Origin: Acidobacteriota bacterium
GTDB taxonomy: Bacteria; Acidobacteriota; Thermoanaerobaculia; UBA5066
Length of the DNA stretch: 64,000 bases
Assembly (NCBI GenBank): GCA_029781975.1
Contig: JAKOVQ010000033.1
Span: forward strand, 240,157 to 304,156
Reading direction: 5' to 3'
Below, piece after piece: positions 27,136-45,471 of the stretch; the stretch's first letter is position 1, and each line of letters starts with the position of its first letter. Below the pieces are notes generated by a model. That model had not been told where the DNA came from. It did not search any database and was given only the letters and a program-made list of their open reading frames with translations. The position numbers were made by a program, and so were the translations under genes.

Positions 27136-28428
27136 TCAGACCTTCGTGCCGGGCGGGAGGACCGCGCCCTTCGGGACGATGACGATCCCGTCGCGGAGGA
27201 ACCAGCCGGCGCCGTCCTCGTCCGGCCGGGACGGGTCGCCGCGCAGGACGCACCCGGCGCCGATCCGGGCGTTCTTGTCGACGATCGCCCGCTCGATCGC
27301 GCAGTCGGGCCCGATCCCCATCGGCGGGAGCCCCTTCGTCGCCGCCGCGACGCGCTCGTCCTCCTCCTCGAAGTCGTCGGCGCCCATCAGGATCGACTGG
27401 GAGATGCGCGTCCCCGCGTCGATCCGCGACCTCAGGCCGATGACGCTGCGGGACAGCTCCGCCCCGAAGACCCGGATGCCGTCCGCGAGGCGGCAGTGGT
27501 CGATCCGCGCGTCGCGGATGGTCGAGGCGGGGAGGAACCGGGGCCGCGTGTAGATCGGGGCGTCGGGGAGGAAGAAGCGGAAGGGGGGGTCCTCCTCGGT
27601 CAGGGCGAGGTTCGCCTCGTAGAAGCTCGAGATCGTCCCGATGTCCCGCCAGTAGCCGCGGAAGAGGAACGAGTAGACGGCGTGCGTGTCGATCAGGCGC
27701 GGGAGGATGTCCTTGCCGAAGTCGAGCGTCTCCGGGGCCTCGAGGGCCTCCCGGAGGGTCTCGATCCGGAAGAGGTAGACCCCCATGCTGGCGATCCACT
27801 GCCCCGCGGAGAGCCCCCACCGCTCGCGCAGGCTCGCCGGCGGCGCCAGGGGGAGGAGCTCGTCGTCCGTCCGCGGCTTCTCCCGGAAGGTCCGGATCCG
27901 CCCGTCCGAGCCGGCGGAGAGGATCCCGAACCCGGCGCACTCCTCCTTCCCCACCGGGATGACGCTGACGGTGACGTCCGCCCCCGTCTCCAGGTGGCGC
28001 TCGAACATCTCGCCGTAGTCCATCCGGTAGAGGTGGTCGCCCGAGAGGATGAGGACGTGGTCGTACCGCGAGGCGTGGCCGAGCCGGCGGAGGTGCTTGC
28101 GGACGGCGTCCGCCGTCCCCTCGAACCACTCCCCGCCGACGTCGGTCTGCTGGGCCGCGAAGACCTCGACCCCGCCGTGGCCGAAGTTGTCGAACCGGTA
28201 GGTGAGGGTGATGTGGTTGTTGAGGGAGGCGGAGTTGAACTGGGTCAGGACGGCGATGCTCCGGAACCCCGAGTTGATCGCGTTGGAGAGCGGCACGTCG
28301 ATCAGCCGGTACTTCCCTCCCAGGGGCACCGCCGGCTTCGCCCGGTCGCGGGTGAGGGGGTAGAGGCGCTTCCCCTGCCCTCCGCCGAGGATGACGGTGT
28401 GGACCCGGCGCTGCGAGCTGTCTCCCAT
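27136..28428 (-). CDS. glgC: glucose-1-phosphate adenylyltransferase
   Basis: LGGGQGKRLYPLTRDRAKPAVPLGGKYRLIDVPLSNAINSG; LSGDHLYRMDY; ATG at 28428. Confidence 0.92.
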   Translation of the reverse strand: MGDSSQRRVHTVILGGGQGKRLYPLTRDRAKPAVPLGGKYRLIDVPLSNAINSGFRSIAVLTQFNSASLNNHITLTYRFDNFGHGGVEVFAAQQTDVGGEWFEGTADAVRKHLRRLGHASRYDHVLILSGDHLYRMDYGEMFERHLETGADVTVSVIPVGKEECAGFGILSAGSDGRIRTFREKPRTDDELLPLAPPASLRERWGLSAGQWIASMGVYLFRIETLREALEAPETLDFGKDILPRLIDTHAVYSFLFRGYWRDIGTISSFYEANLALTEEDPPFRFFLPDAPIYTRPRFLPASTIRDARIDHCRLADGIRVFGAELSRSVIGLRSRIDAGTRISQSILMGADDFEEEDERVAAATKGLPPMGIGPDCAIERAIVDKNARIGAGCVLRGDPSRPDEDGAGWFLRDGIVIVPKGAVLPPGTKV

Positions 28429-28448
28429 GGCGACGATTGTAGACACCC

Positions 28449-28477
28449 GTCCACCGGAAATCGGCCGATTGGTGGAC
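28449..28477. promoter_or_regulatory. nested inverted repeat in glgC/amylase divergent region, candidate operator
   Basis: GTCCACC-GGA-AATCGGCCGATT-GGTGGAC: 7-bp outer arms and a perfect 12-bp inner palindrome. Confidence 0.5.
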
Positions 28478-28582
28478 CCGATTCCGGGAAAGGACGACGT
28501 GAGGGGGACAGGAAGAGGATCTAGAATCACGTGAAGCTAGGAGGCCGGAGCCATCTCTCCCCCGCCCCGTGGAACCTCCCGA

Positions 28583-30139
28583 ATGCCGACGCCACTTCGA
28601 AACGTGACGCTCTGGGCCGCGATCGCGGGGGTCGCGGCCTGCCTCGCCTCCTGCGCGACGCCCCCCCGCCCCGCCCCTCCCGCGGCGGCCCCGGCCGCAT
28701 CTTCGGCCGGGGCTTCGGCCCCGGCGGCGGTCTCCCCTCCCCTCCTCGACGACTGGCGCGACGCCGTCCTCTACTTCGCCCTCGTCGACCGGTTCGCCGA
28801 CGGCGACCCGTCGAACGACGCGGACGTCGACGTGAGGCAGAAGGGGACCTTCCACGGCGGGGACTTCGTGGGGCTGACCGAGCACCTCGACGAGATCGCC
28901 TCCCTCGGGGTGAACGCCCTCTGGATCACCCCCGTCGTCACCAACATCCCGGGCTTCGTGACCGGCGCCGGCTTCCCCGACTGGGCCTACCACGGCTACT
29001 GGGCGGACGACTTCCACTCCCTCGACCGGCGGTTCGGGACCGAGGCCCAGCTGAAGGCCCTCGTCGACGCCTGCCACCGGAAGGGGATCCGCGTCCTCCT
29101 CGACGTGGTCTACAACCACGCCGGGTACGGGTCGCGGTACACCACCGACCCGAGGACGCGCGGGTGGCTCCGGACGACGGAGAAGGGGGACTGCGGGCAG
29201 GACGACGTGACCTCGTGCGTCGCCGGGCTCCCCGACTTCAAGACCGAGGTCCCCGAGGTGGCGGACTACCTGCTGAAGGCGCAGATCGGCTGGGCGAAGG
29301 AGCTCGGCGTCGACGGGTTCCGCCTCGACACGGTCAAGCACGTCTCCCACGACTTCTGGAAGGAGCACCGGAAGCGGACCCGGGCCGAGCTCGGGCCGAG
29401 GTTCTTCCTGCTCGGAGAGGTCTGGGGGGGCGACCCGCAGGTCCTCGACCCCTGGTTCGAGGGGGACGAGCTCGACGCCGGCTTCGACTTCGCCTTCCAG
29501 GGGAGCGCGATCGCGTTCGTCCAGGGGCGCGGGCGGACCGTCGCCTTCGACCGTTACCTGAAGTCCCGCGAGAAGGTCCGGCCGGGCTACCTGATGGCCG
29601 ACTTCCTCTCCTCCCACGACGTCCCGGGCGCCCTCTTCCAGCTCGGGGGCGACGTGAGCCTCTTCCGCCTCGCGGCCGTCCTCCAGATGACGGCCGCCGG
29701 CATCCCCGTCGTCTACTACGGCGAGGAGGTGGGGCGGAAGGGGGGGGACTGGCCCGACAACCGGAGCGACATGCCGTGGGGCGACCGGAGGATCGCGCCC
29801 GGCGCCGGCGTCCCGCGCGACGAGGGGCTCCGCGCCGACTACGTGAAGCTGATCGCGATCCGCGAGGCCCACCCCGCCCTGAGGCGGGGGACGCACGAGG
29901 GGCTCGTCACCGACGGGGACGGCTACGTCTTCGTCCGGCGCGACCCCGCGTCGAAGGACGCCGTGGTCGTCTGCGTGAACCGGGGCGCCGCGCCCGTCGG
30001 CGTCACCTTCCCCGCCCCCGCCGAGTGGGGCGGCGCCAAGCCGGTGGAGCTCTTCTCCGGCGCTCCCGTCCCGGCCGCGGCCGGGACGGTCACGCTCGAG
30101 CTGCCCGCTCACGGCTTCCGGATCCTGGCGGCCCGCTGA
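28583..30139 (+). CDS. GH13 alpha-amylase family lipoprotein
   Basis: Lipobox-like LASC; YFALVDRFADGDPSND; LLDVVYNHAGYGS; GVDGFRLDTVKH; LLGEVWGGD; FLSSHDVPG. Confidence 0.9.
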   Translation: MPTPLRNVTLWAAIAGVAACLASCATPPRPAPPAAAPAASSAGASAPAAVSPPLLDDWRDAVLYFALVDRFADGDPSNDADVDVRQKGTFHGGDFVGLTEHLDEIASLGVNALWITPVVTNIPGFVTGAGFPDWAYHGYWADDFHSLDRRFGTEAQLKALVDACHRKGIRVLLDVVYNHAGYGSRYTTDPRTRGWLRTTEKGDCGQDDVTSCVAGLPDFKTEVPEVADYLLKAQIGWAKELGVDGFRLDTVKHVSHDFWKEHRKRTRAELGPRFFLLGEVWGGDPQVLDPWFEGDELDAGFDFAFQGSAIAFVQGRGRTVAFDRYLKSREKVRPGYLMADFLSSHDVPGALFQLGGDVSLFRLAAVLQMTAAGIPVVYYGEEVGRKGGDWPDNRSDMPWGDRRIAPGAGVPRDEGLRADYVKLIAIREAHPALRRGTHEGLVTDGDGYVFVRRDPASKDAVVVCVNRGAAPVGVTFPAPAEWGGAKPVELFSGAPVPAAAGTVTLELPAHGFRILAAR

Positions 30140-30156: not shown

Positions 30157-31254
<1,098 letters not shown>

Positions 31255-31273: not shown

Positions 31274-32500
31274 ATGAAGCTCACGCCCCGTCTCTCCCTC
31301 GCGGCGGTCGCCGCGCTCGCCGCCTCGCTCGCCGCCCCGGCCCTCGCCCAGAAGGAGATCGTCGTCTGGCACGCGTACCGCGCCGAGGAGAAGGCCGCGC
31401 TGGAGAAGGTCGTCGCGGCCTACAACCAGGCGAACGCCGCCAAGGGGATCAAGGTCACGACGCTGGCCGTCCCCTACGACGCCTTCGCCGACAAGATCAC
31501 CGCCGCCGTCCCCCGCGGCAAGGGGCCCGACGTCTTCATCTACGCCCAGGACCGCCTCGGAGGCTGGATCGAGGCGGGGAACACGGTCGAGCCGATCGAC
31601 TTCTTCCTCGACAAGGCGACGAAGGACCGCTTCATCCCGACGACGATGGAGGCGATGACCTACCGCGGGACGGTCTGGGGCCTGCCGCTCGACTACAAGG
31701 TCATCACGATGATCTACAACAAGAAGCTGGTCCCGGTCCCGCCGAAGACCTCGAAGGAGCTCGTGGCGGTCGCCCGGAAGCTGACGGACAAGAAGGCCGG
31801 GCGCTTCGGGCTGGCCTACTCGTACTCCGACTACTACTACCACGCGGCGCTCCAGAACGGCTTCGGCGGACGGGTCTTCGACCCGGGCCCCAAGCCCGTC
31901 CTGAACGCGCCGGAGAACGTCAAGGCGATGGAGCTCCTGATGCGCTGGCTCGACACGGACGGGATCCTCCCGGCCGAGCCGTCGACGGCGCTCATCACCT
32001 CGCTCTTCAACGACGGGAGGGCGGCGATCGTCTTCTCGGGGCCCTGGTTCCTGGGGGAGATCGCCAAGGGGATCGACTACGCCCTCGCCCCGCTCCCGAC
32101 GCTCGACGAGGCGGGCGGCAAGCCGATGCGTCCCTGGATGACCGTCGAGGGCGTCTTCGTGACCGCGCAGTCGAAGAACAAGGACGCCGCGTACGACTTC
32201 GCCAAGGTCCTCACCGACACCCCGGCGGCGCGGGTGATGGCGCTCGAGGGACGGCAGACCCCCGCGAACAAGGCGGTCTACGACGACCCGGCGGTCGCGA
32301 AGGACCCGATCCTCTCGGCCTTCCGCAAGCAGGTCGAGGTGGCGATCCCGATGCCGAACCTGCCGGAGATGACGATGGTCTGGTCGCCGGCCACGACGGC
32401 GATGAACACGATCGTCAAGAAATCGGCCACGCCCAAGGCGGCCCTCGACGCCGCCGAGAAGGCGGTCCTCCGGGACGTGGCGGGCCTGAGGAAGAGGTAA
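31274..32500 (+). CDS. malE: maltose/maltodextrin ABC substrate-binding protein
   Basis: Signal peptide; EIVVWHAYRAEEKAALEKVV; FSGPWFLGEI; ARVMALEGRQTPANKAVYDD. Confidence 0.85.
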   Translation: MKLTPRLSLAAVAALAASLAAPALAQKEIVVWHAYRAEEKAALEKVVAAYNQANAAKGIKVTTLAVPYDAFADKITAAVPRGKGPDVFIYAQDRLGGWIEAGNTVEPIDFFLDKATKDRFIPTTMEAMTYRGTVWGLPLDYKVITMIYNKKLVPVPPKTSKELVAVARKLTDKKAGRFGLAYSYSDYYYHAALQNGFGGRVFDPGPKPVLNAPENVKAMELLMRWLDTDGILPAEPSTALITSLFNDGRAAIVFSGPWFLGEIAKGIDYALAPLPTLDEAGGKPMRPWMTVEGVFVTAQSKNKDAAYDFAKVLTDTPAARVMALEGRQTPANKAVYDDPAVAKDPILSAFRKQVEVAIPMPNLPEMTMVWSPATTAMNTIVKKSATPKAALDAAEKAVLRDVAGLRKR

Positions 32501-32501
32501 C

Positions 32502-34475
32502 GTGAGCGCCCGGGCCGGCGACGCCCCGGAGCGGCCCCCCTCGCATCGCCTGCGGTTCGCGGTCGGCCTCCTCGTCGCGTCGGCGCTCGCCGTGGGCGTG
32601 GGGTACCGCCTCCTCGACGGGGCCCTCGCCCAGGGCGCCCGGAGCGCCGAGGACCGGCGGGCGAACGTCGCCATCCGGGCCCTCGCCGAGGTCGTCGATC
32701 GCGCCGGCGTCACCGGCGACGCCGTCCGCGCGGCCGTCGCGGCGTGGGCGAAGGACCACCCCCAGCAGGCGGCGATCAAGGTCGTCGCCTTCGACGGCCT
32801 CTCGCTCGAGGCCTCGACCGACCCCGCCGACACCGGCGACGAGGCCGCGCCGCGGCGCCTCCGGCGGGAGGAGAAGGACCTCTACGACCGGGGCCAGCGC
32901 CTGCGGGCGGCCGTCGAGACCAACCGGGCCGAGGGGGCCTCCCGCAAGGACGAGGTCGAGCGGGCCCGCCTCGCCGACGGGAGCCTCTCGATCGCGGCGC
33001 CCCTGGAGAAGGACGGCGCGGTCGTCGGCCTCGTCCAGGTGCAGCGGCGGCCCCCGCCGCCCGTGAAGCCCCCCTCCTGGCTGACGGCGCTCAGCTACGT
33101 CGCCGTCCCGGTCGCCGTCTTCCTCCTGGCCGGCCTCGTCGTCGGGGAGCGCCGGGCCGTCCTCGGGGTCCTCGCCGTCGTCCTCCTCGCCGGCACCGTC
33201 TGGGGCTACGGCGCACAGTCCGCCGCGAAGCTCGAGCGGGGCCGCCGCGCGGTGGAGGAGGGGATCGCCGGGATCGTCCGGGACGAGGGGGCGAAGGCCT
33301 CCGCGATCCTCGCCAGCCTCTCTCTCCCGGCCGAGCCCCCGCTCGACCCGGCCCGCTGGGACGCCGACGCGTTCCGCAGGCCCTACGGCGTGGTCCGCTC
33401 CGACGGGAGCGTCGACGAGGCGAAGGTCGCCGCCTCGGCGGCCCGGGACCGGACGGCCGTCCGCAACGCCCTCCTCCTCGTCGGCGGCGTCTCCCTCGCC
33501 GTCCTCCTCTTCGTCGGCCTCGGCGGGGCGTCCGCCTTCGTCCGGACGGTCCGGACGAACCGCGTGGCCTACACCTACGTCCTCCCGGCGATGGCCGGAA
33601 TGGTCGTCCTCGTCTTCTTCCCGTTCCTCTACGGGATCGCCATCTCGTTCACCGACTCGACGATCTACAACACGAACGCGCCCCTCACCGACATCTGGGT
33701 CGGGTTCAAGAACTACGTCTCGATCCTCTCGGACTTCCACGTCGCCACCCGCGACGCCGACGGCACCCTCGTCTTCAACTACCTGAACTTCTACTGGACG
33801 CTCTGGGTGACGGTCGCCTGGACCGTCACCAACGTCACGATCGGCGTGACCGTGGGGCTCTTCCTCGCGCTCGTCCTGAACACCAAGGGCCTCGCCCTGA
33901 AGCCGGTCTACCGGGTCCTCCTCATCCTCCCCTGGGCCATGCCGAACTACATCACGGCGCTCATCTGGAAGGGGATGTTCCACCAGCAGTTCGGGGTCGT
34001 GAACCAGGTGATCCAGATCTTCGGGGGCTCGCCGGTCTCGTGGTTCGAGACCCCCTTCACGTCGTTCCTGACCGCCCTCGCGACGAACGGCTGGCTCAGC
34101 TTCCCGTTCATGATGGTCGTCTCCCTGGGCGCCCTCCAGTCGATCCCGTCCGACCTCTACGAGGCGGCGCGCGTGGACGGGGCGTCGCGCTGGCAGCAGT
34201 TCACCGGCATCACGCTCCCGTCGCTCAAGCCCGCCCTCGTCCCGGCGATCATCCTGTCGGTCGTCTGGACCTTCAACATGTTCAACATCATCTACCTCGT
34301 CACGCAGGGCGAGCCCGGGGGGTCGACAGAGATCCTGATCACCCAGGCGTACAAGTTCGCGTTCGAGAAGTACCGCTACGGCTACGCGGCGGCCTACTCG
34401 ACGGTCATCTTCGGCATCCTGGTCGTCTACGGGACGTTCCAGAACCGGGTCACCAGGGCCACGGAGGGCATCTGA
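32502..34475 (+). CDS. malF: maltose ABC permease MalF-like with ~350-aa N-terminal extension (TM plus Cache-like segments)
   Basis: C-terminal half typical MalF (EAARVDGASRWQQFTGITLPSLKPALVPA); N-terminal half has additional TM helices and soluble segments. Confidence 0.85.
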   Translation: MSARAGDAPERPPSHRLRFAVGLLVASALAVGVGYRLLDGALAQGARSAEDRRANVAIRALAEVVDRAGVTGDAVRAAVAAWAKDHPQQAAIKVVAFDGLSLEASTDPADTGDEAAPRRLRREEKDLYDRGQRLRAAVETNRAEGASRKDEVERARLADGSLSIAAPLEKDGAVVGLVQVQRRPPPPVKPPSWLTALSYVAVPVAVFLLAGLVVGERRAVLGVLAVVLLAGTVWGYGAQSAAKLERGRRAVEEGIAGIVRDEGAKASAILASLSLPAEPPLDPARWDADAFRRPYGVVRSDGSVDEAKVAASAARDRTAVRNALLLVGGVSLAVLLFVGLGGASAFVRTVRTNRVAYTYVLPAMAGMVVLVFFPFLYGIAISFTDSTIYNTNAPLTDIWVGFKNYVSILSDFHVATRDADGTLVFNYLNFYWTLWVTVAWTVTNVTIGVTVGLFLALVLNTKGLALKPVYRVLLILPWAMPNYITALIWKGMFHQQFGVVNQVIQIFGGSPVSWFETPFTSFLTALATNGWLSFPFMMVVSLGALQSIPSDLYEAARVDGASRWQQFTGITLPSLKPALVPAIILSVVWTFNMFNIIYLVTQGEPGGSTEILITQAYKFAFEKYRYGYAAAYSTVIFGILVVYGTFQNRVTRATEGI

Positions 34476-35359
34476 TGAGGAGCCGCGCGGGCGAGGACGA
34501 GTTCCCCCACCTCCCCCTCCACCTCGTGCTGGTCCTCGCGACCCTGGTGGCCGTCTACCCGGTCCTCTGGGTCTTCACGATCGCCCTCTCCGGGCAGCAG
34601 AGCCTCGCCATCGCGGACCTCCCCTCCGACCCGACCGTGTGGGACCGGCTGCGCGCCATCGTCCCCTGGCCCAAGACGGTCACCCTGTCCAACTTCACCT
34701 CGGTCGTCACGGACCAGCCGTTCGCGCAGTGGATGCTCAACAGCGCGATCGTCGCGATCCTCACGACGATCGTCGGGGTCTTCCTGGCGTGCACGGCGGC
34801 CTACGCCTTCGCCCGCTTCCGCTTCCCGGGCCGCCAGGCCGGGATGATGTCCTTCCTCGTCTCCCAGATGTTCCCCGGGACCCTGATGCTCATCCCGCTC
34901 TACATCATCCTCGTCAAGTGGCTGAACCTCGGGAGCTCGCGGATCGGGCTGATCCTCGTCTACGCCACGACCGCCATCCCCTTCTGCGTCTGGATGCTGA
35001 AGGGCTACTTCGACACGATCCCGAAGGAGCTCGAGGAGGCCGCCGTCATCGACGGCGCCACCCCGAGCACGATCTTCTGGCGGATCGTCCTGCCGCTCGC
35101 CAAGCCCGCCGTCGCGGTCACCGCGCTCTTCTCGTTCATGACCGGGTGGAACGAGTTCATCATCGCCGCCACCGTCATGGACAAGGAGACGATGTACACG
35201 GCGCCGGTCGGCCTCCGCTTCTTCGTGGGCGGCTTCTCCCAGCAGTGGGGCTACTTCGCCGCCGGCGCGATCATCGTCTCGATCCCCGTCGTCGCCCTCT
35301 TCCTCTTCCTGCAGAAGTACCTGGTTTCCGGCCTGACGGCCGGGAGCGTCAAGGGCTGA
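34475..35359 (+). CDS. malG: maltose ABC permease MalG
   Basis: EEAAVIDGATPSTIFWRIVLPLAKPAVAV; TGATG overlap with malF. Confidence 0.88.
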   Translation: MRSRAGEDEFPHLPLHLVLVLATLVAVYPVLWVFTIALSGQQSLAIADLPSDPTVWDRLRAIVPWPKTVTLSNFTSVVTDQPFAQWMLNSAIVAILTTIVGVFLACTAAYAFARFRFPGRQAGMMSFLVSQMFPGTLMLIPLYIILVKWLNLGSSRIGLILVYATTAIPFCVWMLKGYFDTIPKELEEAAVIDGATPSTIFWRIVLPLAKPAVAVTALFSFMTGWNEFIIAATVMDKETMYTAPVGLRFFVGGFSQQWGYFAAGAIIVSIPVVALFLFLQKYLVSGLTAGSVKG

Positions 35360-35385: not shown

Positions 35386-36198
35386 ATGATGAGATTCTTC
35401 CGTCACGCCGTCCTCGGCCTCGTCGCCGCGGCGGTCCTCGCCGGCCCCGTCCTCGCCCAGGAGGTCAGCTTCAAGGACCCGACGGGCGACGACAAGGGGA
35501 ACGGCAAGTACGTCTACCCGACCGACAAGGTCTACACCGCCGGCTCGTTCGACCTCACGGGCTTCCGGATGAAGGTCTCGGGCGACAAGGCCGAGTTCTC
35601 GGTCGACGTCAACTCGAGGCTCGAGGACCCGTGGGGGATGGGCGTCGGCTTCTCCGTCCAGATGGTCTTCATCTTCATCCAGACGGGCGACACCGAGGAC
35701 CGCTTCACGAAGGGGCTTCCCGGCCTGAACGTCGAGTTCGCGCCCGCGGACGCCTGGAACAAGTGCGTCATCCTCTCGCCGCAGCCCCAGAACCGGGTCG
35801 TGACGGAGGTCGAGTCGAAGGCCCCCTGGGCCAAGGGCGCCGTCGTCGTCCCGGTGAGGACCCGCGGCGCCGGCCGGACGATCTCCGGCACGGTCCCCCT
35901 CAAGGACCTCGGCACCGGCGACCCGACCAAGTGGGGCTTCCAGGTCCTGATGCAGTCGAACGAGGGCTTCCCCGACAAGGGCGACCTCCTGACCCGGAAG
36001 GTCAACGAGTACGAGGGGCAGCACCGCTTCGGCGGCGGCACCGACACCGACTGCGACCCGCACGTCATGGACCTCCTCGCCGGCAAGGGGACCGGGGACA
36101 AGAGCGAGATCGAAGAGCAGTACAAGATGCTCTCCTACGAGTGCAACCCCGACGGGACGGCCAAGAAGATGGCCACCCTCACGATGGTCCGCAAGTGA
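35386..36198 (+). CDS. secreted glucodextranase-type DOMON-like domain protein
   Basis: Signal peptide; VSFKDPTGDDKGNGKYVYPTDKVYTAGSFDLTGF; AWNKCVILSPQP; preceded by AAGGAGG RBS. Confidence 0.75.
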   Translation: MMRFFRHAVLGLVAAAVLAGPVLAQEVSFKDPTGDDKGNGKYVYPTDKVYTAGSFDLTGFRMKVSGDKAEFSVDVNSRLEDPWGMGVGFSVQMVFIFIQTGDTEDRFTKGLPGLNVEFAPADAWNKCVILSPQPQNRVVTEVESKAPWAKGAVVVPVRTRGAGRTISGTVPLKDLGTGDPTKWGFQVLMQSNEGFPDKGDLLTRKVNEYEGQHRFGGGTDTDCDPHVMDLLAGKGTGDKSEIEEQYKMLSYECNPDGTAKKMATLTMVRK

Positions 36199-36243
36199 CG
36201 CGGCCCGTCCGAATCTGAATCCGTTTCATTTGGAGGAACCTGC

Positions 36244-38448
36244 ATGCGCGCCAAGCACACCATCGCCCTCCTGGCGGTCGCCGCGCTCCTGATCCCGGCC
36301 GCGGCGCTCGCCCAGCAGGGCCCACAGTTCACCCTCGGAGGGACGACCTACACGAAGTGGCTCTGGGGCAACCAGCGCTACCAGGGCGCCCTCTACAACT
36401 TCAAGGACGCCCCCGGGGAGGGGTACGGCGACAACGGCCAGGGGACCGAGATCGAGCTCCTCCTCAACGCCAAGGTCTCGAAGGCCGTCGAGGTGAAGGC
36501 CCGCCTCCACAGCCGCTTCTACCAGAACTTCTGGACGAACGGCGGCGGCTGGGGCAACCCGTCGGGCGGCACCGACTGCTCCGGGTCCGGCGACTCCGTC
36601 GGCTGCGGCGAGTTCGACCCGCGGTCCAACCAGTACGTGAAGCTCCGCGGCGTCACGGTGACGCTGACCCCCGGCTACAAGTGGATCGACTCGGCGACGA
36701 TCGGCTCCAACGACTGGGGGATGTTCGATCCCTTCGTCGTCGGCCGGATGCGCTACATCGACCGGGACAACGTCTCCGGGCTCCTGTTCCAGGGCTCGGC
36801 GCTCGACCGGACCCTGACCTGGGACGCCGCCCGGATCTCGCTCTACCGGCTCTTCGCCGGCCCGAGCTACACCACCGGCAACTTCCACGCGGCCGACGGC
36901 GGCTACGTGGGCCAGCTCCACTACACGCCGAGCTCGACGTGGGACGCCGGCGCCCTCGTCGAGTGGACGAACGACATCGAGGTCGATCCGAACGACAACA
37001 ACTGGGACAACGGCCGGAACACCACGACGCGGTTCCGCAACACGGTCGCCGGGATCAAGCTCGGGGTCCACCCGAGCGCCGGCTTCGACGCCCGCGCCGC
37101 CTGGTACTACTCGACCTACGACTCGGTCCCGATCGCCGGGGCCCCGGCCAACTTCGGGATCAACGGCTACTCGCCGGTCCCGGCCGGCCAGCACTCCGAC
37201 TGGAGCGGGAAGGTCGACGTCGACCTCCTCAACCTGGGCGGGGGCGGCTTCTCGGTCAACCTCGAGGGGTTCCACATCGGGGCCGAGTACGCCTCCATCC
37301 TGGCGGCCCGCCGCGAGTCCGACGTCCTCCTCACCGAGGGGCACGACTCGACGTGGGCCCTGCCCGGGCCGAACAACGCCGCCTACGGCGTCTTCGGCGG
37401 CAGCGGCAACCGGTCGATCATCGGCTACGGCGGCTGGGAGGGGAACGCCCAGCAGCTCGCGACCGTCAACATCGACAACCAGTTCACCGACTTCAACGAG
37501 CCGATGGCCGAGACGGCGATCGGGTGGGAAGGGATCACGATCGTCCCGACCTTCCAGTCGGGCGCGCTCGACATGTCGGCCGAGTACAGCTACATCACCT
37601 ACGACACGAACTGGCAGGCGTGGGGCGACGACAGCCGGTCGATCACGAACAGCCTCTACCCCGCGATGGACACCCAGACCGGGCTCGGGAGCTACCGCTC
37701 CGCCTACGCTCCCTTCCAGGACAAGACGACCCACATCGCCCTCGTCAAGGGGAAGTACGTCATCGACGCCGGGAAGGGGATCGACGTCTTCGGGAAGATC
37801 AAGTACATCAAGGAGACCGACAACCGCCTCAACGAGGCGCGCTACCTCCCCTACGCGGCGGGCGACTGCTCGACCTCGGGGACCCTCGAGTGCAAGGGGG
37901 TCAAGAACTACTACTCGCCCGGCAACTCCACGGCCGACTACTACTCGAACCCGCCCGTCATCACGGTGAACGGCGTCACCGGCTACAAGTGGAAGCCGTT
38001 CGACAGCGTCTCCGACGACGACCGCGACCTGAAGTACTGGATGGTCAACCTCGGCCTCGGCTACCAGCTGACGAGCGACCTCTACGCCTCGGCCGAGTAC
38101 GTCCACTTCGACGCCGACCTGCAGGACGGCAACACGGCCTTCCAGGCCTACAACCTGATGGAGATGGCGTCGGGCAAGCACCTGAAGAACCAGGTCATCG
38201 TCAAGGCCCGCTACACGCTCGGCGGCCTCTCCGAGTGCGGCATCGTCTACGAGTACAACTACGGCACGTTCGACCCGGACTTCGGCGGCGGCTTCGTCGT
38301 CCAGTACGCCGACCAGGACACCGCCAACAACGTGAAGGTGCCGGTCGGCTCGCCGGGCTTCGCCGGCCGCTACGGGAACTGGAACAGCCTCCTGAAGCGC
38401 GACTTCGACCAGCAGCGCCTCAAGGCCTACCTCAAGATCCTCTTCTAG
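36244..38448 (+). CDS. outer-membrane beta-barrel/porin-like protein
   Basis: Signal peptide, alternating aromatic beta-strands throughout, terminal phenylalanine (LKAYLKILF) typical of OMP beta-signal. Confidence 0.78.
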   Translation: MRAKHTIALLAVAALLIPAAALAQQGPQFTLGGTTYTKWLWGNQRYQGALYNFKDAPGEGYGDNGQGTEIELLLNAKVSKAVEVKARLHSRFYQNFWTNGGGWGNPSGGTDCSGSGDSVGCGEFDPRSNQYVKLRGVTVTLTPGYKWIDSATIGSNDWGMFDPFVVGRMRYIDRDNVSGLLFQGSALDRTLTWDAARISLYRLFAGPSYTTGNFHAADGGYVGQLHYTPSSTWDAGALVEWTNDIEVDPNDNNWDNGRNTTTRFRNTVAGIKLGVHPSAGFDARAAWYYSTYDSVPIAGAPANFGINGYSPVPAGQHSDWSGKVDVDLLNLGGGGFSVNLEGFHIGAEYASILAARRESDVLLTEGHDSTWALPGPNNAAYGVFGGSGNRSIIGYGGWEGNAQQLATVNIDNQFTDFNEPMAETAIGWEGITIVPTFQSGALDMSAEYSYITYDTNWQAWGDDSRSITNSLYPAMDTQTGLGSYRSAYAPFQDKTTHIALVKGKYVIDAGKGIDVFGKIKYIKETDNRLNEARYLPYAAGDCSTSGTLECKGVKNYYSPGNSTADYYSNPPVITVNGVTGYKWKPFDSVSDDDRDLKYWMVNLGLGYQLTSDLYASAEYVHFDADLQDGNTAFQAYNLMEMASGKHLKNQVIVKARYTLGGLSECGIVYEYNYGTFDPDFGGGFVVQYADQDTANNVKVPVGSPGFAGRYGNWNSLLKRDFDQQRLKAYLKILF

Positions 38449-38479
38449 GCCGTCCCGCCCCGCGAGGGGCTTCCGCGAG

Positions 38480-38505
38480 GGCCCGGCGGCGTCCGCCGCC
38501 GGGCC
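38480..38505. terminator. hairpin downstream of barrel gene
   Basis: GGCCCGGCGGC (38480-38490) / GCCGCCGGGCC (38495-38505) followed by TTCCCCTTTC. Confidence 0.6.
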
Positions 38506-38546
38506 TTCCCCTTTCGCCCCGCCCCGGGGACGAGGAGAATCGCCCC

Positions 38547-39584
38547 ATGACCGACGCCCGCCGCGCCCCGAGCCTCCGCCCGCTCCACGCCGCCCTCCTC
38601 GCGGCCGTCGCGCTCCTCGCCGTCGCGGCGCCCGCCGCGGCCCGGGCCGCCGACGACCGGGTGATCTTCCGGCTGACGGACCCCCTCGGGGACGACCACG
38701 GCGACGGCTCGCTCCGCTACCCCCGGAGCAACGACCTGAAGCGCGGCGACCTCGACATCGCCTCCTTCTCCGCCCGCGAGGAGAAGGGGGGGACCTTCTT
38801 CGAGGTGACCTTCGCGCGGCGGATCCGCAGGACGGAGCCGCGCGCGATCGACGAGGGGGCGACGCTCCTGACCGACGTCGCCCGCCTCGGCTTCTACACC
38901 TTCAACGTCGACGTCTACGTCGACACCGACCGCAAGCCGGGCTCGGGGAACGTCCAGCTCCTGCCCGGCCGCCTCGCCGAGCTCCAGCCGGAGTACGCCT
39001 GGGAGAAGTGCATCGCGCTCACGCCCCGGCCCTGGGACGCAGGCGACGAGACGAAGCGGATCCTGACCCGCCGCCAGCGGATGGAGGAGCTGAAGGCGCG
39101 CGGCGGCAAGGAGAAGCTCCCGAGGGAGACCGCCCAGGAGATCTCGGCCGAGGTCAACCGCCTCGTCGACGAGAAGGTCTTCTTCCCGACCGTCGTCCAG
39201 GTCAACGGGCCGACGGTCCGCTTCTTCGTCCCGGCCTCGTTCCTCGGCGGGCCCGCGAGGCCCGAGTGGGCCTACGTGGTCTTCGTCACCGGGGCCGACA
39301 TCCTCCAGAAGCTCGACCTCGCCAGCCTCCTGGGGATCGACAAGAAGGCCGCGCTGCCGGGCCCCTACCTGATCCCCGTCGCCTACGGCTCCTGGGAGAA
39401 CAAGTTCGGCACCGACACGATCGACGAGCTCCTCCCGCCGATCGTCGACCTCGTCGTCCCGCCGGGGGCGTCGCAGGAGAAGCTCCTCGGGAGCTCGGAC
39501 CCGGAGACGGACACCCCCGTGCGCCTCCCCGGGGTGGTCCCGGCCGACCTCCCGCCGGCGGGCGCGGCGGGGAAGGCTAGGTAG
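38547..39584 (+). CDS. second secreted glucodextranase-type DOMON-like protein, paralogue of 35386-36198
   Basis: FRLTDPLGDDHGDGSLRYPRSNDLKRGDLDIASF; AWEKCIALTPRP; same layout as the upstream protein. Confidence 0.72.
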   Translation: MTDARRAPSLRPLHAALLAAVALLAVAAPAAARAADDRVIFRLTDPLGDDHGDGSLRYPRSNDLKRGDLDIASFSAREEKGGTFFEVTFARRIRRTEPRAIDEGATLLTDVARLGFYTFNVDVYVDTDRKPGSGNVQLLPGRLAELQPEYAWEKCIALTPRPWDAGDETKRILTRRQRMEELKARGGKEKLPRETAQEISAEVNRLVDEKVFFPTVVQVNGPTVRFFVPASFLGGPARPEWAYVVFVTGADILQKLDLASLLGIDKKAALPGPYLIPVAYGSWENKFGTDTIDELLPPIVDLVVPPGASQEKLLGSSDPETDTPVRLPGVVPADLPPAGAAGKAR

Positions 39585-41097
39585 CGCCCCCGTTCGCCAG
39601 GCGGCTCCGCCGCGCCCCGTAGGCGAAGTAGATCGCCAGGCCGACGAGGAGCCAGAGGACGAACCGGACCCACGTCAGGAGCGGGAGCCCCGCCATCAGG
39701 GCGAGGCACATGGCGATCCCGAGGAGGGGCGTGAACGGGGAGAGGGGGACCCGGAACTTCCGCGGCCGTCCCGGCTCCCGTACCCGGAGGACGAGGATCC
39801 CGATGCAGACGAGGACGAAGGCGAAGAGCGTCCCGATGTTCGTCAGCTGGACGATCTCGTCGATGTTCGCCACCGCCGAGAAGAACGCCACGAACAGTCC
39901 CGTCAGGATCGTCGCGGCGTGCGGGGTCCGGTACCGGGCGTGGATCTTCCCGAACCAGGGGCCCAGCAGGCCGTCGCGCGACATCGCCATCAGGATGCGG
40001 GGCTGGCCGAGCTGGAAGACGAGGAGGACCGACGTCATCGCGACGACGGCCCCGAAGGCGAGGATCCCCGCCGCCCACCCCTGCTTCGCGTAGCTGAGGG
40101 CCGCGGCGAGCGGGTCGGCCACCCCCTTCAGCTGCGCGAACGGGATGATCCCCGTCAGGACGAGCGCCGCCCCCACGTAGAGGACCGTGCAGACGAGGAG
40201 CGAGCCGAGGATGCCGCGCGGCATGTCGCGCCCCGGGTCCTTGCACTCCTCGGCCGCCGTCGAGATGGCGTCGAACCCGATGTAGGCGAAGAAGATGAGG
40301 GAGGCGCCGGTCCAGACCCCATGCAGGCCGCCCGGGAAGAACGGGTGCCAGTTGGCCGGCTTCACCCAGAAGGCGCCGACGACGACGAAGAAGACGAGCG
40401 TCGCCACCTTCAGGACGACGATCACGTCGTTCACCCGGGCGGACTCCTTGACGCCGATGACGAGGATCCACGTGATGAGCGCCGTGATCGAGGCCGCCAG
40501 GAGGTTGAAGACGAGGGGGACGCCGAGGAGGGTCGGGTGCTGGAGGAAGGCCTCGTACCCCACGCGCTGCTCCGGGCCGAGCGAGGCGAGGCCGGAGTCG
40601 GCGACGGCCTTCGCGGCCATCGCGGCCGAGCGCCAGTCGGTGGCCATCCAGGCCGGGATGTGGACGCCGAACCCCGCGACGAGCTGCCGGAAGTAGGCCG
40701 CCCACGAGATCGCCACCGCGACGTTCCCGACGGCGTACTCGAGGATCAGGTCCCAGCCGATGATCCAGGCCACCAGCTCGCCGAGCGTGGCGTAGCTGTA
40801 CGTGTACGCCGAGCCGGCCACCGGGACGAGGCTCGCGAACTCGGCGTAGCAGAGGCCGCAGAAGCCGCAGGCCACCGCCGTGATGAGGATGGAGACGACG
40901 ACTCCCGGGCCGGCCGGGGGGAGCCCCGTCCCGCCCGACGTGGCGCTCCCGAGGGTGGCGAAGATCCCGGCGCCGATGATGGCGCCGATCCCGAGGGCGA
41001 GGAGGTCCCCCGCCGTCAGCGCCTTCTTGAGGCCGTGGGCCTCGTCTCCACCCTCGGCGATCAGGACGTCGAGCGGCTTCCGGCGGAACAGGTTCAT
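39577..41097 (-). CDS. APC family amino acid permease
   Basis: GIGAIIGAGIFATLGSATSGGTGLPPAGPGVVVS; 12-14 TM helices. Confidence 0.88.
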   Translation of the reverse strand: MNLFRRKPLDVLIAEGGDEAHGLKKALTAGDLLALGIGAIIGAGIFATLGSATSGGTGLPPAGPGVVVSILITAVACGFCGLCYAEFASLVPVAGSAYTYSYATLGELVAWIIGWDLILEYAVGNVAVAISWAAYFRQLVAGFGVHIPAWMATDWRSAAMAAKAVADSGLASLGPEQRVGYEAFLQHPTLLGVPLVFNLLAASITALITWILVIGVKESARVNDVIVVLKVATLVFFVVVGAFWVKPANWHPFFPGGLHGVWTGASLIFFAYIGFDAISTAAEECKDPGRDMPRGILGSLLVCTVLYVGAALVLTGIIPFAQLKGVADPLAAALSYAKQGWAAGILAFGAVVAMTSVLLVFQLGQPRILMAMSRDGLLGPWFGKIHARYRTPHAATILTGLFVAFFSAVANIDEIVQLTNIGTLFAFVLVCIGILVLRVREPGRPRKFRVPLSPFTPLLGIAMCLALMAGLPLLTWVRFVLWLLVGLAIYFAYGARRSRLANGGAT

Positions 41098-44286: not shown

Positions 44287-45471
44287 ATGAGCACCGCTCT
44301 CGTCGACTACTGCCGGTCCGAGCTGGAGGCCCTGAGGAGCGCCCGCACGTTCAAGAAGGAACGGGTCCTCGAGGGTCCCACCGGGGCCCGCGTCCGCGTG
44401 GACGGCCGCGACGTCCTGATGCTGACCTCGAACAACTACCTCGGCTTCGCCAACCATCCCCGCATCGTCGAGGCCGCCCGGAAGGCCCTCGGGCGCTGGG
44501 GCAACGGCCTGGGCTCCGTCCGGTTCATCTGCGGGACGCAGGAGCTGCACAAGGAGCTGGAGCGGACGATCTCCGCCTTCTTCGGGACCGAGGACACCAT
44601 CCTCTACATGTCGTGCTGGAACGCGAACGAGGGGCTCTTCCAGCCCCTCCTCTCCGAGGAGGACGCGATCCTCACCGACGGCCTCAACCACGCGTCGATC
44701 ATCGACGGGATCCGCCTCTGCAAGGCGAAGCGGTTCGTCCTGCCGCACGGCGACCTCGCCGCCTCGGAGAAGGCGCTCCAGGAGGCGCAGGCGTGCCGCC
44801 GAAGGCTCTACATGACCGACGGCGTCTTCTCGATGGAGGGGGAGGTGGGGCCGATCCCCCAGCTGGTCGAGCTCTGCGCGCGCTACGACGCCACGCTCGT
44901 CGTCGACGACTCGCACGCCACCGGCGTCCTGGGGGCCACGGGACGGGGCTCCGCCGAGGAGCTGGGGGCGATGGGGAAGGTCCCCGTCTTCACGTCGACC
45001 CTCGGGAAGGCGATGGGCTCGGCGGCCGGCGGCTTCACCACCGGCCCGGGACCGCTCGTCGAGCTCCTCCGCCAGCGCTCGAGGACGACCCTCTTCTCCA
45101 ACGCCCTCCCGCCGGCCGTGACGGCCTCCTCGCTCGAGGCGTTCCGGATGCTGATGGAGGACCCGTCGCCGGTCCGGAAGCTCCGCGAGAACGCGCGCTA
45201 CTTCCGCGAGAGGATGGCCGCCGAGGGCTTCGACATCCCGAAGGGGGTCCACCCGATCGTCCCCGTCATCGTGGGCGACACCGCCAGGGCGCTCGCGATG
45301 TCGGCGGCCCTCTTCGAGAAGGGCGTCTACGTCTCCGGCTTCGGCTTCCCGGTCGTCCCCCAGGGGCACGCCCGGCTCCGCTGCCAGATCTCCGCGGTCC
45401 ACTCCACCGCCGACCTCGACGAGGCGGTCGACGCCTTCCGGGCGGTGGGGAAGGAGTTCGGGGCGATCTGA
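44287..45471 (+). CDS. kbl: glycine C-acetyltransferase / 2-amino-3-ketobutyrate CoA ligase
   Basis: LTSNNYLGFANHPRI, SVRFICGTQELHKELE, DDSHATGVLG, FTSTLGKAMG; PLP alpha-oxoamine synthase family. Confidence 0.9.
   Translation: MSTALVDYCRSELEALRSARTFKKERVLEGPTGARVRVDGRDVLMLTSNNYLGFANHPRIVEAARKALGRWGNGLGSVRFICGTQELHKELERTISAFFGTEDTILYMSCWNANEGLFQPLLSEEDAILTDGLNHASIIDGIRLCKAKRFVLPHGDLAASEKALQEAQACRRRLYMTDGVFSMEGEVGPIPQLVELCARYDATLVVDDSHATGVLGATGRGSAEELGAMGKVPVFTSTLGKAMGSAAGGFTTGPGPLVELLRQRSRTTLFSNALPPAVTASSLEAFRMLMEDPSPVRKLRENARYFRERMAAEGFDIPKGVHPIVPVIVGDTARALAMSAALFEKGVYVSGFGFPVVPQGHARLRCQISAVHSTADLDEAVDAFRAVGKEFGAI

Follow-up and report, generated by a model that had tools for sequence, protein, structure and literature searches.

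A 64,000-nucleotide stretch of contig JAKOVQ010000033.1 (positions 240,157 to 304,156, assembly GCA_029781975.1; here called the window) from an Acidobacteriota bacterium of the Thermoanaerobaculia lineage UBA5066 carries, all on the same strand, the genes GH13-malK-malE-malF-malG-DOMON1-barrel-DOMON2, which quite probably form one operon for the degradation and import of alpha-glucans, most likely maltodextrins. The system would be of the LamB-MalEFGK kind, with an uncharacterized porin and two DOMON-like proteins linked to it. This reading is based on a gene order kept across phyla, the co-occurrence of the barrel with domain PF09985, an exchange against LamB and CBM41 in the same slot, and natural fusions of DOMON1 to the barrel, and further on the nearest relatives of MalE and the GH13 protein and the use of PF09985 as a C-terminal domain in GH13 amylases. 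In the original prediction, two secreted PF09985 proteins had been placed on either side of a 734-amino-acid (aa) barrel ending in Phe, following a GH13 lipoprotein and malKEFG, and this arrangement was recovered exactly, including its span from 35,386 to 39,584.

Intergenic gaps of less than 50 bp all along from the GH13 gene to the barrel gene make a single operon likely. Based on Pfam domains and gene order, the transporter is of the MalEFGK type, with a substrate-binding protein, two permeases, and an ATPase with OB and TOBE domains encoded in one operon. MalE found its best natural matches in the PDB among maltodextrin- and maltose-binding proteins (1elj, E 3e-55), and the nearest solved proteins of the GH13 enzyme are alpha-amylases, maltogenic amylases, and cyclomaltodextrinases, with the catalytic Asp, Glu, and Asp in place (DGFRLDTVKH, LLGEVWG, and FLSSHD). 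In NCBIfam, MalK scored above the cut-off of the UgpC-type subfamily and below that of the MalK equivalog, and MalF and MalG were the best matches of the respective permeases, both below cut-off. MalF (32,502–34,475) has some 350–440 residues ahead of its permease domain.

A species-wide scan, using one genome per species and short conserved peptides as queries, by which divergent barrels are under-counted, revealed 31 barrel loci. Their hosts are Acidobacteriota, including Thermoanaerobaculia, the myxobacteria Corallococcus, Archangium, Hyalangium, Vitiosangium, and Citreicoccus, and two metagenome-assembled genomes (MAGs), one gammaproteobacterial and one from Rhodospirillaceae. The full eight-gene order is kept in 21 of the 31 loci, from Acidobacteriota, Myxococcota, and an alphaproteobacterium; nine others are cut by contig ends, none contradicting the order, and in the last one (L024, genome G003) the DOMON2 gene is on a different contig. 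The original prediction would have been contradicted by barrel homologues standing in unrelated contexts, and the opposite was seen, with DOMON1 adjoining the barrel in all 31 loci and malG preceding wherever the contig extends far enough. The gene order also outlives the similarity of the barrels, since in the MAG loci L048 and L050 the barrel is only 36% identical, as opposed to 72–74% for MalG.

Nearly all genomes carrying either the barrel or PF09985 carry both. Among the window genome and 60 relatives, the barrel was detected in nine of 61 and PF09985 in the identical nine. For the class within Myxococcota (145 genomes), 46 genomes had the barrel, 54 PF09985, and 46 both (Fisher p 7e-30), and for Acidobacteriota (297 genomes) these numbers were 8, 10, and 8 (Fisher p 3e-14), both p values ignoring shared ancestry. 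PF09985 is rare in Gammaproteobacteria (2 of 369 sampled genomes), a search of a plasmid collection gave haloarchaeal matches only, and a PF09985 domain is mentioned as lost in Vibrio campbellii (PMC5286417). In G003, the DOMON2 orthologue on the other contig (L016, G003:C17) stands beside a second GH13 gene, so that DOMON2 is separable from the barrel, and two divergent myxobacterial clusters (L067 and L068, genomes G130 and G168) have DOMON1 and the barrel running opposite to malKEFG, with further genes between barrel and DOMON2, some with lipobox-like starts (L068).

The strongest functional evidence is the replacement of the barrel and DOMON2 by a maltoporin and a starch-binding module, which was found when myxobacterial genomes with PF09985 and no barrel were surveyed. 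In four of them (G072, G088, G189, and G190), the genes GH13-malKEFG-DOMON1 are followed by a LamB porin (PF02264, E 9e-100 to 3e-105), and G099 represents a fifth case (E 2e-113). The next small protein after LamB is a PUD/CBM41 protein (PF03714) in G072, G189, and G190 and, as detected by tblastn, in G099, thus in all four checked of the five Myxococcota genomes. As the DOMON1 proteins of these five genomes form one clade in a quick tree (SH-like approximate likelihood ratio test 99), a single replacement event suffices. The alternation supports a like function of LamB and the barrel, not membership of the latter in the LamB family. A genome-wide exclusion of one by the other was considered and rejected, since LamB-family genes occur elsewhere in many barrel-bearing myxobacteria, and the alternation is therefore confined to the operon slot. 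In the window genome and its 60 relatives, no LamB gene (PF02264) was found.

DOMON1 and DOMON2, the only PF09985 (Glucodextran_C, DOMON-like) genes of the genome, scored 199 and 112 bits, respectively, against a curated cut-off of 22 bits. They are distant paralogues (28% identity over 123 aa, E 3e-10), and DOMON1 is nearer to glucodextranase 1ug9 (profile match E 3e-21, compared to E 2e-9 for DOMON2). The shared motifs quoted in the original prediction are present in both proteins (DPTGDDKGNGKYVYP in DOMON1 and DPLGDDHGDGSLRYP in DOMON2; AWNKCVILSPQP and AWEKCIALTPRP, respectively), apart from GxxDLxxF, from which DOMON2 departs with GDLDIASF. An invariant His of DOMON1 (H213) is absent from DOMON2 and glucodextranase. 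Certain other DOMON domains bind heme; a heme-type DOMON was disfavored, H213 as ligand being common to neither DOMON2 nor glucodextranase. The DOMON1 of Corallococcus ends in a Pro/Ala/Thr-rich tail. Apart from that, DOMON2 of two proteobacterial MAGs (L048:4121-5371 and L050:12244-13545) has a SHOCT-like C-terminal stretch, odd for an exported protein, which was confirmed as PF09851 in L048 and is similar by eye in L050.

In three loci (L028, L074, and L075), DOMON1 is fused to the barrel. Locus L028 has a single 1005-aa frame with one signal peptide, in which the barrel's own signal peptide is lost and the two parts are joined by a linker (about 45 residues) rich in Ala, Pro, and Glu. Genomes G285 and G467, from another Acidobacteriota family, revealed a similar fusion and linker, with a barrel about 30% identical to that of Hyalangium (L031) and no DOMON2 found near the fusion; the tree calls for two separate fusion events. 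Barrels of this kind normally have both termini on the periplasmic side, so that the fusion of DOMON1 to the barrel's N-terminus points to a periplasmic location of DOMON1. Lipoboxes, called by motif and not by trained predictors, were detected in DOMON2 of most myxobacterial loci, while DOMON2 of the window and of other Acidobacteriota has an ordinary signal peptide. DOMON1 is without a lipobox, the one flagged case (L048) coming from a MAG gene with a frameshift, in which the motif is remote from its typical site, and the GH13 protein has one in most loci, though certain starts are uncertain. In barrel-less genomes, the operon is without DOMON2; as its gene tracks the presence of the barrel, the probable site of action of DOMON2 is the outer membrane, on one face or the other.

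The barrel itself gave no match in Pfam (above cut-off), NCBIfam, or the PDB sequences, and its identity as a beta-barrel is based on its signal peptide, the terminal Phe, and AlphaFold2 and Foldseek. The AlphaFold2 model, built from 24 sequences, is of moderate confidence (predicted local distance difference test, pLDDT, 63.7; predicted TM-score, pTM, 0.65) and displays about 22 long strands, the first starting some 10 residues past the signal peptide. The same strand number was obtained for the barrel part of a fusion model (pTM 0.56). With both models, Foldseek listed maltoporin, TonB-dependent barrels, AlgE, and the Mtr complex barrel, all with low TM-scores; the first by E-value is a LamB, but with a TM-score of 0.26/0.38. 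A family assignment from Foldseek was dropped, as only generic barrels with low TM-scores were matched. Pfam identified neither a PF02264 (LamB) domain in the barrel nor a TonB plug domain in the 24 barrels. Judged from the models, the barrel is probably larger than LamB.

Regarding the substrate, GH13 amylases with a C-terminal PF09985 are encoded in Myxococcota (L069, L070, and L072), the one in L070 beside DOMON2 in a barrel cluster, and barrel cluster L067 harbors a CBM41-bearing pullulanase. On plasmid pNVE414 of Natrinema versiforme, a stand-alone DOMON gene lies beside genes for an alpha-glucosidase, a GH97 enzyme, a TrmB-type sugar regulator, and an ATP-binding cassette (ABC) transporter. 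Together with the relatives of MalE and the GH13 protein, this makes the imported sugar very probably an alpha-glucan, with maltodextrin as the likeliest candidate.

From the gene families, their order and conservation, the LamB/CBM41 exchange, and the fusions, all of them read from the sequence, we infer which substrate is imported, that the DOMON proteins bind sugar, that the barrel functions as a channel, and where DOMON1 and DOMON2 are located. In the proposed scheme, the GH13 lipoprotein would shorten glucans, and the barrel would act as the outer-membrane channel for the oligomers, the job of LamB in enteric bacteria. DOMON1, as a periplasmic protein of a carbohydrate-binding type, may sit where the channel opens into the periplasm and hold the sugar or hand it to MalE, while DOMON2 would be a second protein of this type that accompanies the barrel and is anchored to the membrane in most myxobacteria. 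Import across the inner membrane would then be the task of MalE, MalF, MalG, and MalK. A more specific version, in which the barrel is a wide plugless sugar channel of about 22 strands, a barrel size otherwise typical of TonB-dependent transporters, with the separate DOMON1 as gate or relay at its periplasmic mouth and large glucans entering without TonB, is unlikely; were it true, the natural fusions would represent a DOMON1-barrel complex in covalent form.

Several points weigh against the main reading. The barrel falls into no recognized family, the confidence of its model is only moderate, MalE, MalF, and MalG remain under the NCBIfam equivalog cut-offs, and no established ligand of PF09985 was found in the searched literature. 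Moreover, in genomes G103 and G160 DOMON1 and the transporter are retained and the slot holds neither of the two porins, and in G075 DOMON1 stands in an unrelated context, so that the barrel is not strictly required for DOMON1. The score of MalE would also be compatible with another glucose-containing sugar imported by the same architecture, e.g., isomalto-oligosaccharides (dextran products), trehalose, or cyclodextrins, as would the alpha-1,6-acting glucodextranase that gave PF09985 its name and the similarity of the GH13 protein to cyclomaltodextrinases and neopullulanase; with the replacement by LamB and CBM41 and the genes for pullulanase and amylase found in sister clusters pointing to starch-type glucans, we consider this very doubtful. 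That the barrel and the two DOMON proteins serve a separate function (export, adhesion, or heme/electron transfer through DOMON) and are merely co-transcribed is extremely improbable: heme binding by other DOMON domains and the AlgE and Mtr complex barrels among the Foldseek matches would fit, but the order with malKEFG is kept across phyla, LamB and CBM41 can take the same slot, and H213 is not shared.

A Sus-like apparatus, in which DOMON1 and DOMON2 would take the part of SusD, SusE, and SusF and capture starch on the cell surface, with the barrel in the part of SusC, seems quite improbable. The N-terminal fusion of DOMON1 to the barrel in two lineages and its missing lipobox point to the periplasm, the signal peptide of the window DOMON2 is ordinary, and neither a plug nor SusD was found in the operon by Pfam. 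Genome-wide, SusD was searched with PF07980, the one SusD model run at this scale, and no match was found in the window genome and its 60 relatives. On the other side stand the lipoboxes of DOMON2 and GH13 in most myxobacterial loci, as for surface Sus proteins, CBM41 in place of DOMON2 in the LamB operons, and a predicted barrel width equal to that of TonB-dependent barrels. Thus, the capture by two surface proteins claimed in the original prediction was not borne out, a lipobox being carried, of the two, by DOMON2 alone and only in most myxobacterial loci, while its SusC/D-independent operon for alpha-glucan uptake is supported by the conserved mal context, LamB and CBM41 in the same slot, and the 61 genomes free of PF07980.

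The enteric maltose/maltodextrin system comprises LamB, MalE, MalF, MalG, MalK, MalS, and MalM, with malM after lamB. As in that system, the operon encodes a MalEFGK importer, an extracytoplasmic GH13 amylase, a putative dedicated outer-membrane channel, and a small exported protein beside the porin (MalM there, DOMON2 here). In contrast, the porin here has about 730 aa and no Pfam family (LamB about 420 aa), the small proteins belong to PF09985, and all genes lie in one operon. The Sus system of Bacteroidota likewise combines an outer-membrane barrel, small proteins of a glucan-binding type, and a GH13 lipoprotein, but here the TonB plug and SusD are missing and an ABC importer of the MalEFGK type serves the inner membrane. 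The Cym gene cluster of Klebsiella oxytoca also pairs a passive outer-membrane channel for large alpha-glucans with a MalEFGK-type importer, and its known content does not include DOMON proteins. Its cyclodextrin porin CymA is far smaller, with an N-terminal segment constricting the pore (PMC11186346). While glucodextranase (1ug9/1ulv) and the GH13-DOMON enzymes of L069, L070, and L072 have PF09985 in common with the operon, the domain is an enzyme module there and stand-alone or barrel-fused here. The cluster on pNVE414 resembles it in a stand-alone PF09985-type gene in a sugar-utilization cluster with an ABC importer, but is archaeal, without outer membrane or porin. Altogether, the layout is closer to LamB plus MalEFGK than to Sus.

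The families of all parts except the barrel are already known, and so is the overall plan, that of the LamB-Mal system. New are the family of the porin, its association with a pair of DOMON proteins, and the natural DOMON1-barrel fusions, in so far as the literature searched, which lacked most subscription journals, contained no description of them or of stand-alone Glucodextran_C proteins with a porin. The proposed role would be the first functional assignment for a porin family of Acidobacteriota, Myxococcota, and a few Proteobacteria that has no Pfam or NCBIfam model, and it suggests a route for the uptake of starch fragments in bacteria without SusC/D and LamB. Cultured carriers (Corallococcus, Archangium, and Hyalangium) make the system testable, and the fused proteins offer a ready target for studying the cooperation of a sugar-binding protein with a porin.

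Table 1. Features of the putative alpha-glucan operon in the window.
Feature	Position	Strand	Evidence
GH13 lipoprotein of the alpha-amylase type, 518 aa, first in the operon	28583-30139	+	PF00128 E 3e-51, Malt_amylase_C, lipobox LASC
malK, ABC ATPase	30157-31254	+	ABC_tran, OB_MalK, TOBE (Pfam)
malE, sugar-binding protein	31274-32500	+	SBP_bac_1
malF, permease with long N-terminal region, 657 aa	32502-34475	+	BPD_transp_1 at 448-650
malG, permease	34475-35359	+	BPD_transp_1
DOMON1, Sec-exported stand-alone PF09985 protein, 270 aa	35386-36198	+	PF09985 E 8e-59
Outer-membrane beta-barrel, 734 aa, last residue Phe, proposed maltodextrin channel	36244-38448	+	Homologous loci, AlphaFold2, LamB slot
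Terminator-like GC hairpin in the barrel-DOMON2 gap	38449-38546	+	-35.7 kcal/mol, z -2.9
DOMON2, exported stand-alone PF09985 protein, 345 aa	38547-39584	+	PF09985 E 4e-32

The GC hairpin between barrel and DOMON2 is conserved, with z below -2 in 26 of 28 loci (the window and L021-L051) and often a T-run following. Strong folding was also detected in many myxobacterial DOMON1-barrel gaps, so such hairpins are not confined to this position. The terminator-like hairpin suggests a dosage of its own for DOMON2; perhaps the element acts as a partial terminator or stabilizes the mRNA. The window gave no match in Rfam. A tRNA-Cys called by ARAGORN at 44,670–44,754 on the reverse strand lies antisense within a long coding frame (44,287–45,471) and is probably false. 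The operon is bordered upstream by a divergent glgC (27,136–28,530) and downstream by a convergent gene for an amino-acid permease (39,577–41,097).

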